Assembly (NCBI GenBank): GCA_023142175.1 | Contig: JAGLJX010000070.1 | Coordinates: forward strand, 1-7,530 | Direction: 5' to 3' | DNA: 7,530 bases | From: Emcibacter sp. | GTDB lineage: Bacteria; Pseudomonadota; Alphaproteobacteria; Sphingomonadales; Emcibacteraceae | Part shown: positions 1 to 7,530 of the stretch, piece after piece | Layout of the letters: each line of letters starts with the position of its first letter | How positions within the stretch are numbered: position 1 is the first letter of the stretch | Made by a program: the position numbers and the translations under genes | Notes under the pieces: model-generated | Database searches by the model: none | Told to the model about the DNA's origin: nothing | Seen by the model: the letters and a program-made list of their open reading frames with translations, nothing else

Positions 1-2171
1 TCGAAGAGCTCGCTCGGCGCAACCGCCCTCTTGCGTGGCTCCGGTGTCCCATACCAATGGGCGCCCGAGATGTAGAGGCGATCTTTGGCCCGGGTGGCGG
101 CAACGTAAGCGGTTCGCCACTCCTGGCGAGATGATCGCTCTTTGAGGAGCGCCTGCCGATCGGACTTGTCCATCGCCTCTGTTAGCGGCGGGAGGCTATC
201 GCGGTCCAGCCGAAGCGAGTAGGGAAGGACGTGTGCCTTTTCGAATGGGTCTTCATAGGATCGCACTGCCGACGGGAAGTTGTTGTGATAGGCGGCAGGA
301 ATGAACACGATCGGCCATTCCAGCCCCTTCGCACGGTGGACGGTGAGCAGGGCGACAGCATCCTGACCACTTAATTTGGCCGGTGTCAGTTCTTCGTTGT
401 TTCCGTCGGCCATGACATCGAGGTAGTCCAGAAAGGCTGGAAGTGATGGGCGGCCTTCGAGAGGCGACCACTCCTCGGCAAGATCAAGGAACCGGTGAAG
501 GTTGAGTCGAACCGACAGTCTGGTCTGATCCGGCATCGCTTCGATCTCTTGCCACGACCCAGTTTCCTGGAGGATCCGTCGAGCCAATTCCACCAGGCTG
601 GCACCCTGAGCATCCTGGAGCAGACGCCGGTACAGAGAGCGGAAGGCAGCCAGAGCGTCGTGGGCGGCAGGCCTTTGGCCTGAGATGTCGTCGAGGTTGT
701 CGATCGCCTCTAGCAGTGAGGGTTTCAGGACGTTGTAGTCGTCGATGGCCGAGCGTGCCCATCTGGTGAGCGGCAAGATATCGGAGAAGCCGAGCCGGTA
801 GTTGCTGCCGAGCAGAATGCGCATCAGCGCCGTGCCGTCGGCAGGATCATTCAGAACTCTCAGCCAGGTGTGTAGCTCAACAATCTCCGGAATGGCGAGC
901 AGGCCCCCGATGCTGGCCACCTCGGCCGGGATTTGGTGTTCTTCGAGTGCCTGTTGGACGAGGGTGATGTCTTTGTTCTTGCGGAAGAGCGCGGCCATCT
1001 GGCGCCATTCGTAGCCGTCTGCTCGAAGCTCGAGCATCGTTTCCGCAACGAACTCTGCCTCATCGATGGCGGTACGCGTCCAGCGGGTGGCGACCAGGCC
1101 CGTCTCAGCTCCGTCGACCCCCACCAGATTCTTTCCGGTTTGGTTGCCGGTCTTCTCTCGAACTGCGTTGGCGAACGCGATCACCTGCCTGGTCGATCGC
1201 CGGTTGACGGTCAACGAAAGCGTCTCCGCCGGCGATCCATCCTGGTGAGCGAAATGAGTCGGGAAAGCTGCGAAGTTCTCAAGTGACGCTCCCCGCCACT
1301 CATAGATGGTCTGGTCCGGATCTCCTACCGCCGTCACCGGGAATGCGTCACCGAAGATGCTCAGCAACAACTCGCGCTGGGCGGGGTTGGTGTCCTGATA
1401 CTCATCAAGCAGCACAATCTGATATCGCGAACGGACACGTTTCCCTACATCGGGATGGTTGGTCACCACGTTGTGAGCTAGCCGCACGAGGTCGGAGTAG
1501 TCGACCACGCCCAGGCGTCGCTTCTCCGATTCGAAGCGAGCTACTACGCCGGCAAGTTCAGCGCGCTCATCCCACGGCTCTCCAGATTGGCCTCTGGTGT
1601 ATTCGATGAGGTCGGTGCCGGTGCCAAGGTTGTCTCCAAGGTCGGAGGCGAGCCGTTCGGGTCGATCAACGATGCCACGCCAGGTTATGTCCAGATGCTC
1701 ATATGATCCCGAGTCGATCGAGTCGAACAACAACTGGCGAGCAAACGTCGGGGTGATGATCTTGCTGTCGTGCTCCACTCCGGCGAGAACACCGAACTCA
1801 CTCAGGATGAGGGCTGCGAATCCGTGGTAGGTGTGGATCTCGACATCCCGGCCGGGCTCGATCACTCCTCCCAGCATTTCGGCGATTCGCTCACCCAACT
1901 CCTGCGCGGCCTTGTTGGTGAAGGTCACCGCTAAAATTTGCCCCGGATAACCACTTCCTGTGGTCAGTATATGGGCAAGGCGGGTGATCAGTACGCGGGT
2001 TTTCCCCGTGCCCGCCCCCGCCAGCACCAATAGCGGCCCGTTGATGGTTTCAACAGCTTGCATTTGAGGCGGATTTAAGCCCTCCAGATAGGCCGGTGCT
2101 ATGTTATCCGCGGGGCTATCAAAAGGAATATCGTCAGCGGCAAAATTATCAATATCAAATGGGTCAGACAT
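1..2171 (-). CDS. UvrD/PcrA/AdnB-type SF1A DNA helicase, 3' end off window, apparently chimeric
   Basis: ATP-dependent 3'-5' DNA helicase of superfamily 1A, a family that acts in DNA repair and fork or end processing. The frame is open for 723 codons from ATG at 2171 to the left edge. Visible motifs: Q-motif region (LNPPQMQAV, residues 32-40), Walker A AGAGTGKT (51-58), motif Ia VTFTNKAA (82-89), Walker B LLDEYQDTN (254-262), motif III VGDPDQTIYEWRGA (282-295), motif V around TVHRAKGLEW (H612) and motif VI YVAATRAKDR (R694). The coding sequence continues past motif VI off the window. Residues 1-89 read like alphaproteobacterial UvrD/PcrA. From residue 90 the protein has HTYHGFA where those proteins usually carry GTFHS, GDPDQ rather than GDDDQ, and SGAHWYG after motif VI, all recalling long actinobacterial helicases that often end in a PD-(D/E)XK nuclease; that end cannot be seen here. 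The ATG at 2171 has only a weak AGAAAG upstream, but no other early start precedes the Q motif. Helicase identity is certain; its being one natural gene is doubtful. Confidence 0.9.
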   Translation of the reverse strand, partial: MSDPFDIDNFAADDIPFDSPADNIAPAYLEGLNPPQMQAVETINGPLLVLAGAGTGKTRVLITRLAHILTTGSGYPGQILAVTFTNKAAQELGERIAEMLGGVIEPGRDVEIHTYHGFAALILSEFGVLAGVEHDSKIITPTFARQLLFDSIDSGSYEHLDITWRGIVDRPERLASDLGDNLGTGTDLIEYTRGQSGEPWDERAELAGVVARFESEKRRLGVVDYSDLVRLAHNVVTNHPDVGKRVRSRYQIVLLDEYQDTNPAQRELLLSIFGDAFPVTAVGDPDQTIYEWRGASLENFAAFPTHFAHQDGSPAETLSLTVNRRSTRQVIAFANAVREKTGNQTGKNLVGVDGAETGLVATRWTRTAIDEAEFVAETMLELRADGYEWRQMAALFRKNKDITLVQQALEEHQIPAEVASIGGLLAIPEIVELHTWLRVLNDPADGTALMRILLGSNYRLGFSDILPLTRWARSAIDDYNVLKPSLLEAIDNLDDISGQRPAAHDALAAFRSLYRRLLQDAQGASLVELARRILQETGSWQEIEAMPDQTRLSVRLNLHRFLDLAEEWSPLEGRPSLPAFLDYLDVMADGNNEELTPAKLSGQDAVALLTVHRAKGLEWPIVFIPAAYHNNFPSAVRSYEDPFEKAHVLPYSLRLDRDSLPPLTEAMDKSDRQALLKERSSRQEWRTAYVAATRAKDRLYISGAHWYGTPEPRKRAVAPSELF
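1904..1932 (-). other. Probable chimeric junction inside helicase motif Ia
   Basis: On the minus strand this stretch encodes VTFTNKAA, among the most conserved blocks of SF1A helicases. On the N-terminal side (residues 1-81) I count 40 of 81 codons ending in A or T, with ATT and ATA common for Ile. On the other side (residues 90-170) I count 23 of 81, with Ile written as ATC 8 times of 9. The protein motifs change lineage at the same place. About 24 conserved bases shared by two homologues would join them in frame, which explains why the frame stays open. The codon shift is seen directly. The change of lineage is inferred from family memory without a search. Confidence 0.65.
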
Positions 2172-2293
2172 ACTTTCTGTATACTTTAAATTTACGGGGA
2201 AAACAGGTTTTTCTGGTTTATTATTTTTCTTCAAGCAGGGCTTTATTATAGGCCTGAAGAACATATTTATCTGTGATCAGCGTCCGGGTTTAT

Positions 2294-2324
2294 GTGGAGC
2301 GCATCACATGGTGCGCCCGTCCAC
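2294..2324. repeat. 12-bp hairpin with 3-nt bulge
   Basis: The outer stem GTGGA (2294-2298) pairs with TCCAC (2320-2324). The inner stem GCGCATC (2299-2305) pairs with GGTGCGC (2310-2316), with one T-G wobble. The loop is ACAT and the bases 2317-2319 bulge out. No U-run follows directly on either strand, so it is not a standard intrinsic terminator. It may be a structured leader element on the helicase side or chance pairing in a G/C-rich patch. Confidence 0.4.
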
Positions 2325-2465
2325 CCTCCAGATCAAGCCCGCCCTGTTTTAACTGCATATGGAAGCCGGAGGTTTTCCAATCGGAAGGGACTTAAATTTT
2401 TTTAATATCCAAGAGAAACTCACCCTATTAAAGAGGCTTCATCCCCCAATCACATTATATTGTCA

Positions 2466-2517
2466 TTAAAATATTAGAAAATTTTAGAGAAATATAAGAA
2501 AACTGTTAATATTTTAA
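2466..2517. repeat. A/T-only 11-bp perfect inverted repeat
   Basis: The arms TTAAAATATTA (2466-2476) and TAATATTTTAA (2507-2517) are exact reverse complements separated by 30 bases. They lie upstream of the candidate asmA promoter. Their all-A/T content in an A/T-rich region makes chance a real possibility. A regulator site or DNA-bending element is the alternative. Confidence 0.4.
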
Positions 2518-2568
2518 GGAGATACTGCGATAGTGGCTATCTTGGTTATTGAAAAAAAAGACATATTC

Positions 2569-2596
2569 TTGCCACGGTTTTTATGTCATATATTAT
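2569..2596 (+). promoter_or_regulatory. Candidate sigma-70-like promoter for asmA
   Basis: TTGCCA (2569-2574) and TATTAT (2591-2596) are separated by 16 bases, and each matches five of six bases of the E. coli -35 and -10 consensus hexamers. Transcription would begin near 2603, giving a leader of about 60 nt before the TTG start. In such an A/T-rich region near matches arise easily, so this is a suggestion only. Confidence 0.35.
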
Positions 2597-2654
2597 CCCA
2601 CTATAACACCGGGAAAAATATGGTTAAATAAACCGGAATTAACGCGGGGAAGGC

Positions 2655-2658
2655 GGAG
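2655..2658 (+). promoter_or_regulatory. Ribosome-binding site deciding the asmA TTG start
   Basis: GGAG lies six bases before TTG at 2665, inside a purine-rich run from about 2646. This spacing, together with the Met-Lys-Lys and membrane anchor that follow at once, selects TTG as the start. The only nearby upstream ATG (2620) meets a stop after two further codons. Confidence 0.7.
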
Positions 2659-2664
2659 AAGAAC

Positions 2665-5600
2665 TTGAAAAAACTTGGGCTAGGCCTTGGTATTCTGATT
2701 GTGGTCGTGATTGGAGCAATATTAATTGTGCCAAGCTTCCTTAATTGGAATGAGTATAAGGTTGAAATAGAAGAAACAGCATCCGAATATACCGGCCGGA
2801 CGGTGGTGATCAAGGGTGATATTTCCATGTCACTTCTGCCCATGACGGCGCTTTCTGTGAAAGATGTCTCGGTTACTAATCTGGACGGTGGCCGTGCGGA
2901 ATATATGCTGTCCCTCAAATCCCTGGATGTTAAGGTTAGTTTCCCGTCAGTTATTTCTTTGCTGTTCGGCGGCAAGGTCAAGGTTGAAAAGTTTATTCTT
3001 GTTGATCCGGTTGTCGCCCTCGAAGTGTTGCCCGATGGCCGGGTAAACTGGGATCTGGGCGGTGACGCATCTGAGGGGTCGGAGCAGGCATCTTCTGCCG
3101 ACATCAGCCTCGATAAATTCCAGATCGTTAATGGGCAGGTGAGCTTTGAGGATATGGCCTCCCAGCAGATGGAACTGCTCAGAAAAATAAATGCCAATGT
3201 GAAAGTTAAAAGTATTAACGGCCCTATCGATGTGACGGGCAGCGCAAAATACAAGGGACTTGATGCTGAGCTATCCTTCAGCCTTGGCAAAATCAGACCG
3301 GGTAAAAAAGTACCGGTAAATATCACTATGTCCATGCTGGATGGTCAGGTAAAAGTCGGTGTTCTTGGCGGCGTGATTTTAAGTGGCAAAGATAGTTCCT
3401 TTTCCGGCAAGCTGGATATGAAGGCCAATGACGGCGGCGATATGTTTAATATCATCGACCGTATTAAGGGATTGAAGCCGCCATCCGATATCAGAATTGG
3501 TCAGAATTTCTCATTCGACACGGCGGTAGTCGTGGCGGCTGACAATATTGCCGTAAAGGATTTAAATATCAGGATGGGGCAAAGCCGGGGTCAGGGGGCT
3601 ATAGATGTCTCCCTTGGTGAAAAGATAAATATTCAGGCGAACTTGTCTATAAATAAACTGGATATGAATCCTTTGCTTGTTGCTTTTGCCGACCAGCAAA
3701 ATCAAACATCCCCGGAGACGGTAAAACAGGCGGATGTTGATGGCGAACAGGTGGTGGTCAGTGACCTTTTAAAAAGACTTGCGGGTTCACTGGACCTGAG
3801 GCTTGGGGCTTTAAAATATAATGGCAAGATTGCCAGCCAGATTGCTGTCAAGCTTACGGCTAAAGATGGTATTGTTGACATATCGACCGTTCAGGCCCGT
3901 ATGCCCGGCGGGTCAGGGCTCAATTTTAAAGGTCAGATTGGCAGTCAGGAAGATAATACCCCCATATTGACCGGGGATTTGTCTGTGAATGCCAGCAACC
4001 TGCGGGGGCTGTTAAGCTGGCTCAAGGTGGATGTGAGTGAAATTCCTTCTGGTCAGTTGACCCAGTTTTCTTATAAAAGTGGCCTTAAAGTAACATCGGA
4101 ACTGGTGCAATTTTATACCGTTGCCGGGAAACTGGATGCGATGAGTTTTAAAGGCGGCGTGTCTTATGCGCTTGAGGGCCGATCATCTTACGGCATCAGC
4201 CTTGATATGAAAAACCTCAACCTTGACGCTTATATGTCAAATCGGAAACCGGAAAAGAAGAGCGACCTGAAAAAAGCCCTTGGCCTGTTGGATGAGTTTG
4301 ATGTCAGCTATGATATTGCCCTGTCTAATATTACCCTAAGCGGTATGAAAATACGGTCCGGCAAGTTGGATGGCTTACTTTTGGGGGGCAAGCTGGATGC
4401 GAAAGTGATCAGGCTGGAAGATATGGCCGGGATAAATTTCACGGGCAGCGCGGTGGCTAAAAATTTCAGTTCTAATCCTGAGCTTACCCTTAAATTATCC
4501 GCAGATGCCAAATCACTGGTGACCCTTCAAAGGGTATTAAAACTGGATGATAAGTTTGACCTGCGCAGACTTGGTCAGATGAAAATTGATGGCTCCCTTA
4601 CCACTACTTATGAGAAAATGGATTTGGATATTAAGTCTTCGCTGGGGGTCAGTAAATTTGATGTGAAGGGTGTGGTTCGCAGTGCAACCTTGAAACAATT
4701 TCCTGAAATTGGCAGTGCCGACCTCGCCGTAAATGGCAGGTCGACAAGTCTTACTGCCCTAATCGACCAGTTCGACCTTCCCATTGTCCGGCCACGGGCC
4801 AGTGATGATCGCCCTGTTGCCCTGAAGGGTCGTATCAAATCAAGTTCGGATTTTATCGATGTTGACGGCAAGATTAATATTGCCGCTGGTGAGGTTATTG
4901 TCAAAAGCAGAAGCCGGGGCAAAGGCAAGGCCGCGTCCCTCGATATGACAATGGATTTAAAAGGCTCGGACACCCGTGAGTTTATCCGTGGTCTGGGAAT
5001 AGATTTTCAGCCGTCGAAGCGGGAGCTTGGCCCTATAGCCCTCAAGATGAAGGTGGTGGGAAGCGGAGATCAATATAGTTTCAGCAATATTGTTGGTGAT
5101 GTGGGGCCGGTAAAGCTGAGTGGTGATGGCAAAGTTAATATGGCCAGCGCCAAGCCTGATTTTGATTTTAACCTGAAGGCCGGGGATATCCCGCTACACA
5201 GCTTCCTGAAGGCGGCTGATAAATCCGGTAAAAACAACAAGGCTCGTGGTCAATGGACACGGTCGACCATGGATCTGTCTTTGCTGTCTGATTATGACGG
5301 GCGGGTACAGGTATCCGCCGCAAGTTTGCGTTATAATGATTATATTTTTGAAAATCCGGCTTTTGGTATGGTCCTGAAGGATGAGATTATTACGGTAGAT
5401 GATTTTACCGGGCGTTTGTTCGGGGGAGTTGTGGGGATGTCCGGGTCTTTTGGTGGTACGGCTAAGCCGAAGATGGCATTGGCAATGACCCTGAAAAAAG
5501 CGTCCCTGTCCCAAGCGACAAAATCCTCGGCAGGTATAGAGCCGGTCACCGGATTTTTTGACCTGTCCTGTAAATTCTCCGGCGAAGGTAAAAGTCAATA

Positions 5601-6249
5601 TGACATAATTTCTTCCCTGTCGGGAAATGGTGAAATTGTGGCAAATCCCGGACTGATTAATGGCATTGATATTCCCGCCCTCAGCAATCAGTTGTCCGAT
5701 ATGAGCAGCAATGGGGCTTTTGGGAATTTGCTAGGAACAACGCTTTCGGGCGGTCAGACATCCTATAATGGCGGGATTAGCACTATTACAGCCAAAGATG
5801 GCCAGCTAGTATTCAGCCCATTTGATATTGAACTGGATGGGGCAAAATCAAATGTGGCCATGGCCGTTGATCTGGTGAAATGGGATATACGTTCAAACGG
5901 CAGCCTGTCCCTTTATGACCATCCCGATGCGCCGCCCATTGGCGTGGCGGTCACGGGTGATGTGAGCCGCCCGAATGTGGTTTATAATACGGACCGTCTG
6001 AAAAAATATGTTGGCGCAAAAATAGCCTCTAATATGTTACAGAAACTGGTCGGTGGCGAGGGCGGACTTGAGGGTATATTCGGGGAAAAGCCAAAGGAGG
6101 TGCAACCCACAGCACCACCACCCGCAGAAGATAACAGCCCGCAAAGCCCCCCGCAGGGCGAATCAAAGCCAGTTGAAGAATATGGCCAGAAATTGTTGCA
6201 GAAGCTGTTTGAAAAAAAGCCCGCAAAGAAGGATGAGCCTAATCCCTGA
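2665..6249 (+). CDS. AsmA-family inner-membrane-anchored envelope protein
   Basis: AsmA-family protein of 1194 residues. Members (AsmA, TamB, YhdP and relatives) are anchored in the inner membrane, extend through the periplasm, and are implicated in outer-membrane biogenesis and phospholipid transfer along a long hydrophobic beta groove. A short basic start (MKK) is followed by one hydrophobic segment (about residues 4-22). Then comes the family-typical entry with NWNEYK, GRTVVIKGD and a SLLP segment, followed by SVKDVSVTN. The long body of alternating short strands, rich in Gly, Asp, Ser and Lys, fits the repeated beta fold. About residues 985-1095 resemble the AsmA C-terminal domain, with GNGEIVANPGLING, then GGQTSYNGG and later GVAVTGDVSRPNV. 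After a helical stretch (about 1110-1136) the last ~50 residues are Pro-rich and then Lys-rich, probably flexible. Start is TTG, supported by GGAG six bases upstream. The gene is monocistronic in this window, divergent from the helicase and overlapping the RHH gene at its 3' end. Family is confident; which paralogue is not resolved. Confidence 0.9.
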   Translation: MKKLGLGLGILIVVVIGAILIVPSFLNWNEYKVEIEETASEYTGRTVVIKGDISMSLLPMTALSVKDVSVTNLDGGRAEYMLSLKSLDVKVSFPSVISLLFGGKVKVEKFILVDPVVALEVLPDGRVNWDLGGDASEGSEQASSADISLDKFQIVNGQVSFEDMASQQMELLRKINANVKVKSINGPIDVTGSAKYKGLDAELSFSLGKIRPGKKVPVNITMSMLDGQVKVGVLGGVILSGKDSSFSGKLDMKANDGGDMFNIIDRIKGLKPPSDIRIGQNFSFDTAVVVAADNIAVKDLNIRMGQSRGQGAIDVSLGEKINIQANLSINKLDMNPLLVAFADQQNQTSPETVKQADVDGEQVVVSDLLKRLAGSLDLRLGALKYNGKIASQIAVKLTAKDGIVDISTVQARMPGGSGLNFKGQIGSQEDNTPILTGDLSVNASNLRGLLSWLKVDVSEIPSGQLTQFSYKSGLKVTSELVQFYTVAGKLDAMSFKGGVSYALEGRSSYGISLDMKNLNLDAYMSNRKPEKKSDLKKALGLLDEFDVSYDIALSNITLSGMKIRSGKLDGLLLGGKLDAKVIRLEDMAGINFTGSAVAKNFSSNPELTLKLSADAKSLVTLQRVLKLDDKFDLRRLGQMKIDGSLTTTYEKMDLDIKSSLGVSKFDVKGVVRSATLKQFPEIGSADLAVNGRSTSLTALIDQFDLPIVRPRASDDRPVALKGRIKSSSDFIDVDGKINIAAGEVIVKSRSRGKGKAASLDMTMDLKGSDTREFIRGLGIDFQPSKRELGPIALKMKVVGSGDQYSFSNIVGDVGPVKLSGDGKVNMASAKPDFDFNLKAGDIPLHSFLKAADKSGKNNKARGQWTRSTMDLSLLSDYDGRVQVSAASLRYNDYIFENPAFGMVLKDEIITVDDFTGRLFGGVVGMSGSFGGTAKPKMALAMTLKKASLSQATKSSAGIEPVTGFFDLSCKFSGEGKSQYDIISSLSGNGEIVANPGLINGIDIPALSNQLSDMSSNGAFGNLLGTTLSGGQTSYNGGISTITAKDGQLVFSPFDIELDGAKSNVAMAVDLVKWDIRSNGSLSLYDHPDAPPIGVAVTGDVSRPNVVYNTDRLKKYVGAKIASNMLQKLVGGEGGLEGIFGEKPKEVQPTAPPPAEDNSPQSPPQGESKPVEEYGQKLLQKLFEKKPAKKDEPNP

Positions 6250-6460
6250 GATGTTTTTTCAGGACAAAAACACGTATGGCGCTGCTGAGGTTTGTTTGTC
6301 GGGTGCTATCAATATCTGTGATTAATGCGCTTAGGCTAATGCCCTGCATTTTGGCTATTTTTTTTAAGTGATACCAGAATATATTTTCCAGTGTGATACT
6401 GGTCTGATGTCCGGCGATGATGATCGAATGTTTTTTCAGAGCATTTTCTTCACCGGACAT
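6239..6460 (-). CDS. Small ribbon-helix-helix (RHH_4-type) protein
   Basis: Protein of 73 residues resembling the RHH_4 family common in Alphaproteobacteria. The residues HSIIIAGHQTSITLE (11-25) fit the DNA-contacting strand, about 26-40 the first helix (FWYHLKKIA), then GISLSALITDID (40-51) the turn and second helix. The closing NLSSAIRVFVL (57-67) is a family hallmark. RHH proteins usually dimerise and bind operator DNA, but the targets of this family are not known to me, so regulation of its own operon or of metabolism is inference only. The ATG at 6460 has AGGAAA seven bases upstream and follows the fumarase stop by 11 nt, indicating co-transcription. From memory, this family often sits near fumarate hydratase in alphaproteobacteria, sometimes with a small DUF4169 gene between; no such gene fits here. 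The last 11 bases overlap the end of the convergent asmA gene. Confidence 0.85.
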   Translation of the reverse strand: MSGEENALKKHSIIIAGHQTSITLENIFWYHLKKIAKMQGISLSALITDIDSTRQTNLSSAIRVFVLKKHLRD

Positions 6461-6467
6461 ATTTAGG

Positions 6468-6473
6468 TTTCCT
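6468..6473 (-). promoter_or_regulatory. Shine-Dalgarno of the RHH gene overlapping the fumA stop codon
   Basis: Read on the minus strand, TAGGAAA combines the fumA stop TAG (6474-6472) with AGGAAA (6473-6468), placed seven bases before the RHH ATG. Ribosomes ending fumA therefore cover the next gene's initiation site, which suggests translational coupling. Confidence 0.65.
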
Positions 6474-7530
6474 ATAGATTCTGGAAAAAGTCGTTACCCT
6501 TGTCATCCATTACAATGAATGCCGGGAAATCTTTAACGTCTATCTTCCAGACGGCTTCCATGCCAAAATCCTCAAAATCAAGCACTTCAACCTTGGTGAT
6601 ATTATTCTGTGCCAATATTGCCGCAGGGCCACCGATAGACCCCAGATAAAAGCCACGGTGCTGATGACAGGAGCTGGAGACCTGTTTGCTGCGGTTGCCC
6701 TTAGCCAGCATGATCATGCTGCCGCCTTGGGCCTGAAAGGTCTCTACATAGCTGTCCATGCGCCCCGCTGTTGTGGGACCGAAAGAACCGGAGGCATAAC
6801 CATCAGGGGTTTTTGCCGGGCCGGCATAATAGACGATATGATCTTTCATATAGTCGGGCATGGGTTTGCCGTCTTCCAAATTTTTCAGGATGGCAGCATG
6901 GGCGAGATCGCGGGCAACGATAATGGTGCCGGTGAGCGACAGGCGGGTCTTGATGGGATATTGACTTAGCTCCGCCCGAACCTGATCCATAGGTCGGTCC
7001 AGGTCGATTTTGATAACCGTCTCACGGAGGTCTTCTTCTTTAATCTCTGGCAGATATTTAGCCGGATTGCTTTCCAGTTGTTCGATGAAAATTCCATCTG
7101 GGGTAATTTTGGCCTTGGCCTGACGGTCTGCGGAACAGGATACACCAAAGCCGATGGGTACAGAGGCGCCGTGACGGGGCAGGCGGACGACCCGCACATC
7201 ATGGCAGAAATATTTACCACCGAACTGGGCGCCAATGCCAAAATTCTGGGTCATTTTGTGGATTTTTTCTTCTAAGTCCGGTACGCGGATGGCATGACCA
7301 AAGTCATTGCCTTTGGTTGGCAGGCTATCCAGATAATGTGCACTGGCGAGCTTAACAGTTTTCAGATTCATTTCCGCACTTAAGCCCCCGATCACCACCG
7401 CAAGATGGTAAGGCGGGCAGGCTGAGGTACCTAAAGTTTTCAGGCTATCATCAAGAAAGGCTAGTAGCTTGTCTTCGCGCATTATTGCCGGGGTCTGCTG
7501 AAACAGGAAGGTCTTGTTGGCCGAGCCGCC
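6472..7530 (-). CDS. fumA: Fumarate hydratase class I, [4Fe-4S] type, N-terminus off window
   Basis: Iron-sulfur fumarase that interconverts fumarate and L-malate in the TCA cycle, in the cytoplasm. The visible 352 residues begin mid-protein: [14 protein letters not shown] lies upstream in frame, so the Met at 7482 is internal and the true start is beyond the right edge. Two expected cluster cysteines are present, in SACPPYH (Cys codon 7417-7419) and VSCSADRQ (7135-7137). They are 94 residues apart, the same spacing as Cys224 and Cys318 of E. coli FumA. The third ligand should lie off window. The C-terminal domain carries [31 protein letters not shown] and GMEAVWKI, typical of single-chain class I enzymes, so this is not a split alpha/beta form. 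By comparison with FumA about 185 N-terminal residues are missing, giving a usual full length near 540. The enzyme class is O2-sensitive. It precedes the RHH gene by 11 nt in one operon. Identification is very secure. Confidence 0.97.

Follow-up and report, generated by a model that had tools for sequence, protein, structure and literature searches.

Genes at the locus and their relatives

The 7530-bp window seems to be a complete contig and carries genes for a helicase, an AsmA-family protein, and a class I fumarate hydratase. The helicase ORF, on the minus strand, extends without a stop from 2264 down to 3 and on past the window end, which bears out the original prediction of an uninterrupted helicase frame. 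Its database entry, P0001, gives a single contig 7530 bp long. Within this ORF, 82 codons from MSDPF on (1926-2171, minus) are alphaproteobacterial and form the beginning of a UvrD/PcrA-type helicase. They are followed by a 27-base block encoding TFTNKAAQE (1899-1925, minus), the sole stretch where both parents can agree. The remainder (1-1898, minus) is the body of an AdnB-like helicase-nuclease of Acidimicrobiia origin, and the window ends before its nuclease domain. The AsmA-family gene (2665-6249, plus; Pfam PF05170) and the fumarase gene (6472-7530, minus; PF05683/PF05681), the latter truncated by the window end, belong to the alphaproteobacterial part. The contig terminates within the foreign, Acidimicrobiia-like part.

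The 31 codons ahead of MSDPF (2172-2264, minus) contain one to three stops in five of the six relatives examined (L082-L086) and none in L081. The first 31 residues of the ORF are probably non-coding.

The upstream parent of the helicase is represented by P0002, a UvrD/PcrA-type helicase of 792 residues that is apparently full-length and whose gene lies on a contig of 21,272 bp. Counted from 2264, the window ORF agrees with P0002 at each of its first 122 residues (122/122). This identity stops after the codon at 1901-1899, and past TFTNKAAQE the agreement falls to 8 of the next 40 residues. The named relatives of P0002 are Alphaproteobacteria (e.g., Emcibacter, Emcibacteraceae, and Kordiimonadaceae), most of the database matches carrying no name, and these names suggest that the organism of P0002 is itself alphaproteobacterial. 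The 1926-7530 part as a whole comes nearest to Emcibacter-like Alphaproteobacteria, in gene order as well as in sequence. Fumarase, AsmA, and UvrD occur in the order of the window both in Alphaproteobacteria bacterium NORP123 (L015) and in Emcibacter sp. OFTM17 (L016), and this synteny spans the window upstream of the joint. The protein identity to these two loci is 72-73% for AsmA and 92-94% for fumarase. At the DNA level, window 2437-7530 is 75-76% identical to them, and the region of about 1900-2268 is 79% identical to L015 and 83% identical to L016, the matches starting at 1900 and 1905, respectively. The PcrA model TIGR01073 scores 307.5 bits on the window ORF against a cut-off of 911.2, and the ORF is thus not PcrA-like over its whole length.

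Among the 32 genomes of the family of G001, 28 gave a full or near-full UvrD match, three gave pieces (G011, G012, and G014), and one gave a weak match (G015). DNA matching P0002 was sought in the same 32 genomes, and the best identity was 87%.

The downstream parent is found in the Acidimicrobiia metagenome bin CSMAG_694, at the locus L001. Over window 1-1925, 1882 of 1925 bases are identical to L001 (97.8%). The match begins sharply at 1925 and breaks at 1926, and the first 287 bases from 1925 onward are identical. In the protein, 630 of 641 residues are identical from TFTNKAAQE on, compared with 22 of 55 before the motif. The AdnB-like gene of L001 stands immediately behind an AdnA-like gene. 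It has no stop over the 986 residues available and breaks off within the nuclease domain, where its own contig ends. The best solved match of this AdnA-like gene is 7sjr_A, which we take to be AdnA. The best solved match of the window ORF is 6ppr_B ('UvrD/REP helicase'; E 1.6e-80), with the best stretch at residues 232-746. Both 6ppr_B, a mycobacterial protein, and 6ppu_B are presumably AdnB. The PDB codes 6PPR, 6PPU, 6PPJ, and 7SJR do not occur in a paper on AdnAB (PMC13309787), which describes a heterodimer with a RecB-like nuclease domain besides the UvrD-like motor in each subunit. The window ORF is an AdnB-type UvrD-like motor from TFTNKAAQE on, and not before it. It differs from AdnB in its N-terminal 82 residues, which come from the UvrD parent, and the window ends before a C-terminal nuclease domain is reached. 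This PD-(D/E)XK domain is complete in P0121 and P0124 and partial in L001. In the window, the helicase does not have AdnA as a neighbor; the neighboring genes are AsmA and fumarase.

The best database relatives of the body are about 1020 residues long, and several are named Acidimicrobiia. When the two halves are compared with databases separately, the N-terminal relatives are thus alphaproteobacterial and the body relatives are Acidimicrobiia, as expected from the original prediction. The change to a 'long actinobacterial helicase' proposed there holds for the Acidimicrobiia origin of the body. It does not hold for the type, which is an AdnB-like helicase-nuclease and not a longer UvrD/PcrA.

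In CSMAG_694, the AdnA-like/AdnB-like pair is closely preceded by a stand-alone PD-(D/E)XK nuclease gene (PF12705; L001:3913-4776). The Acidimicrobiia genome G003 encodes, besides its AdnB-like gene, a separate UvrD-like helicase (C72:12157-13977) that is 32% identical to the window protein.

Position of the switch

Homology confines the switch to 1899-1925, since identity to the P0002 protein runs through codon 91, counted from MSDPF, and the DNA match to L001 sets in at 1925. The interval originally proposed, 1904-1932, overlaps this block, its start and end being too high by 5 and 7 bases, respectively. The TFTNKAAQE block presumably corresponds to motif Ia of SF1 helicases. All 27 of its bases are matched in L001, 25 in L015 (longest exact run, 20), and 21 in L016 (longest run, 6).

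A 342-base query spanning the joint matched 62 of the 138 Acidimicrobiia-order genomes and 147 of the 196 alphaproteobacterial-order genomes with which it was compared. The three best matches in the Acidimicrobiia order all start at query base 247 (window 1925). The nine best in the alphaproteobacterial order stop at query bases 266-276 (window 1906-1896). Among the matches listed for the two orders, none covers the whole query. Weaker matches do cross the joint. Examples in the alphaproteobacterial order extend over query bases 76-315 at 66% identity, 143-315 at 69%, 74-302 at 70%, and 146-296 at 74%; an example in the Acidimicrobiia order extends over 133-309 at 66%. We attribute such matches to the usual homology among UvrD proteins.

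The composition of the DNA also changes. Of 81 codons on each side of the VTFTNKAA block (1928-1905), 40 end in A or T ahead of it and 23 behind it (Fisher p = 0.0097), exactly as had been counted by hand in the original prediction. A change-point of equal or greater strength in A/T codon endings arose in 0.1% of 2000 permutations. The best break obtained from A/T endings alone is at 2048, away from the motif. These endings were therefore discarded as a locator of the joint, and codon-usage models from other genes were used instead. The training set was the AdnA-like gene found in L001 for one model, and the AsmA and fumarase genes found in L016 for the other. Their summed log-likelihood ratio reaches its maximum at codon 82, position 1926. 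In tetranucleotide usage, 1-1925 resembles the leading 7940 bases of L001, a stretch without the AdnB-like gene (correlation, 0.81), but not the remainder of the window (0.04). For 1926-7530, the correlation with L016 is 0.91, the compared part of L016 containing orthologues of the same genes.

Origin of the hybrid

Homologues that combine the two types were sought among 239 classified proteins, made up of the best 120 of at least 7997 and the best 120 of at least 6791 passing proteins, with P0001 in both lists. Both halves are of alphaproteobacterial type in 119 proteins and of AdnB type in 116. Three are of AdnB type without an N-terminal match (P0137, P0154, and P0203), so that they can be assigned neither as mixed nor as unmixed. 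The only mixed protein is that of the window itself, P0001. With one mixed protein among the 239 classified, an old fusion family was rejected. In a further search, which yielded 94 new matches kept apart from the hybrid classification, the highest score across the joint was that of the window's own protein, 179 bits, against 128 bits for the runner-up.

A native long helicase of Alphaproteobacteria was also considered. It was rejected because the body is of AdnB type and because a sample of 196 genomes of the alphaproteobacterial order yielded no AdnB match at E <= 1e-60, in a search that had no positive-control genome. The related query P0001 matched three of five genomes of the Acidimicrobiia family, at 76-94%.

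Each half of the helicase has an unmixed, near-identical parent in a different organism, P0002 for one and L001 for the other, as is expected of a chimera. Judged from these sequences, the 7530-bp contig is very probably an assembly chimera of two bacterial genomes, and the hybrid helicase gene is most likely an artefact. A contig chimera had been the leading explanation from the outset, and the two parents, together with the lack of any other hybrid among the matches examined, reinforce it. Both genomes would have been present in one sample, and two different SF1 helicase genes would have had in common an exact word of roughly 20-27 bases at motif Ia. A de Bruijn assembler using short k-mers could then have passed between the genomes at this word. 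Across the joint, the frame would have stayed open because the common word occupies equivalent codons of the two genes.

The behavior of assemblers described in the literature is compatible with such a crossing. In the available text of one source, de Bruijn graphs may contain paths that match no real sequence (PMC8172020), and in that of another, k-mers common to several genomes can yield chimeric contigs (PMC7299287). The chimeric contigs that these portions describe for short-read metagenome assembly likewise join genomes through common k-mers in the assembly graph. However, they join closely related species or strains, whereas the present joint connects different phyla through a short, conserved motif of the protein. 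A cold-seep catalogue whose MAGs bear CSMAG names, as L001 does, used MEGAHIT with --k-min 27 for its co-assemblies, as stated in the accessible part of its description (PMC10491686). The window may derive from a short-k-mer assembly such as that of this catalogue.

The hybrid could also have arisen as a physical molecule during library preparation or amplification, by template switching at the common motif, and then have been sequenced. Such an event would account equally for the two parents and for a joint at a short homologous word, but the copies of the hybrid molecule would have to suffice to win the assembly path, and we regard this origin as very improbable. A slightly smaller chance still is given to a very recent real recombination, in which the 3' part of UvrD was replaced by Acidimicrobiia AdnB DNA in an alphaproteobacterial cell. 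The preserved frame and a crossover at a homologous motif would suit recombination. However, P0002, despite its identity over residues 1-122, carries an unmixed gene, and the supposed donor segment is not only nearly identical to L001 but also retains the codon and tetranucleotide usage of the donor. Furthermore, the contig contains no second crossover, no relative carrying the hybrid was seen among the classified proteins or the sampled genomes described above, and the cell would probably have lost UvrD function. It is accordingly hard to credit a living alphaproteobacterial lineage with a UvrD-AdnB hybrid made by cross-phylum recombination through 27 bases or fewer at motif Ia.

Significance for helicase annotation

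A different irregularity is seen in P0003, a UvrD fragment of 421 residues from a Sphingomicrobium MAG (15,845-bp contig). Its N-terminal region is present as a tandem duplicate, with 130 of 150 residues alike and the starts 190 apart. This duplicate is perhaps another assembly artefact.

If the contig of the window is an assembly chimera, there would be no hybrid protein in need of a function. The case is mainly a warning that a gene is not proved real by an uninterrupted frame or by domains in a plausible order. An open frame is no such proof because a common motif of 27 bases or fewer can preserve the frame over a false join. Proteins such as P0001 sit in protein databases as apparent hybrids. 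Chimeras of this kind can be exposed even without reads, by splitting the protein and comparing each part with unmixed parents.
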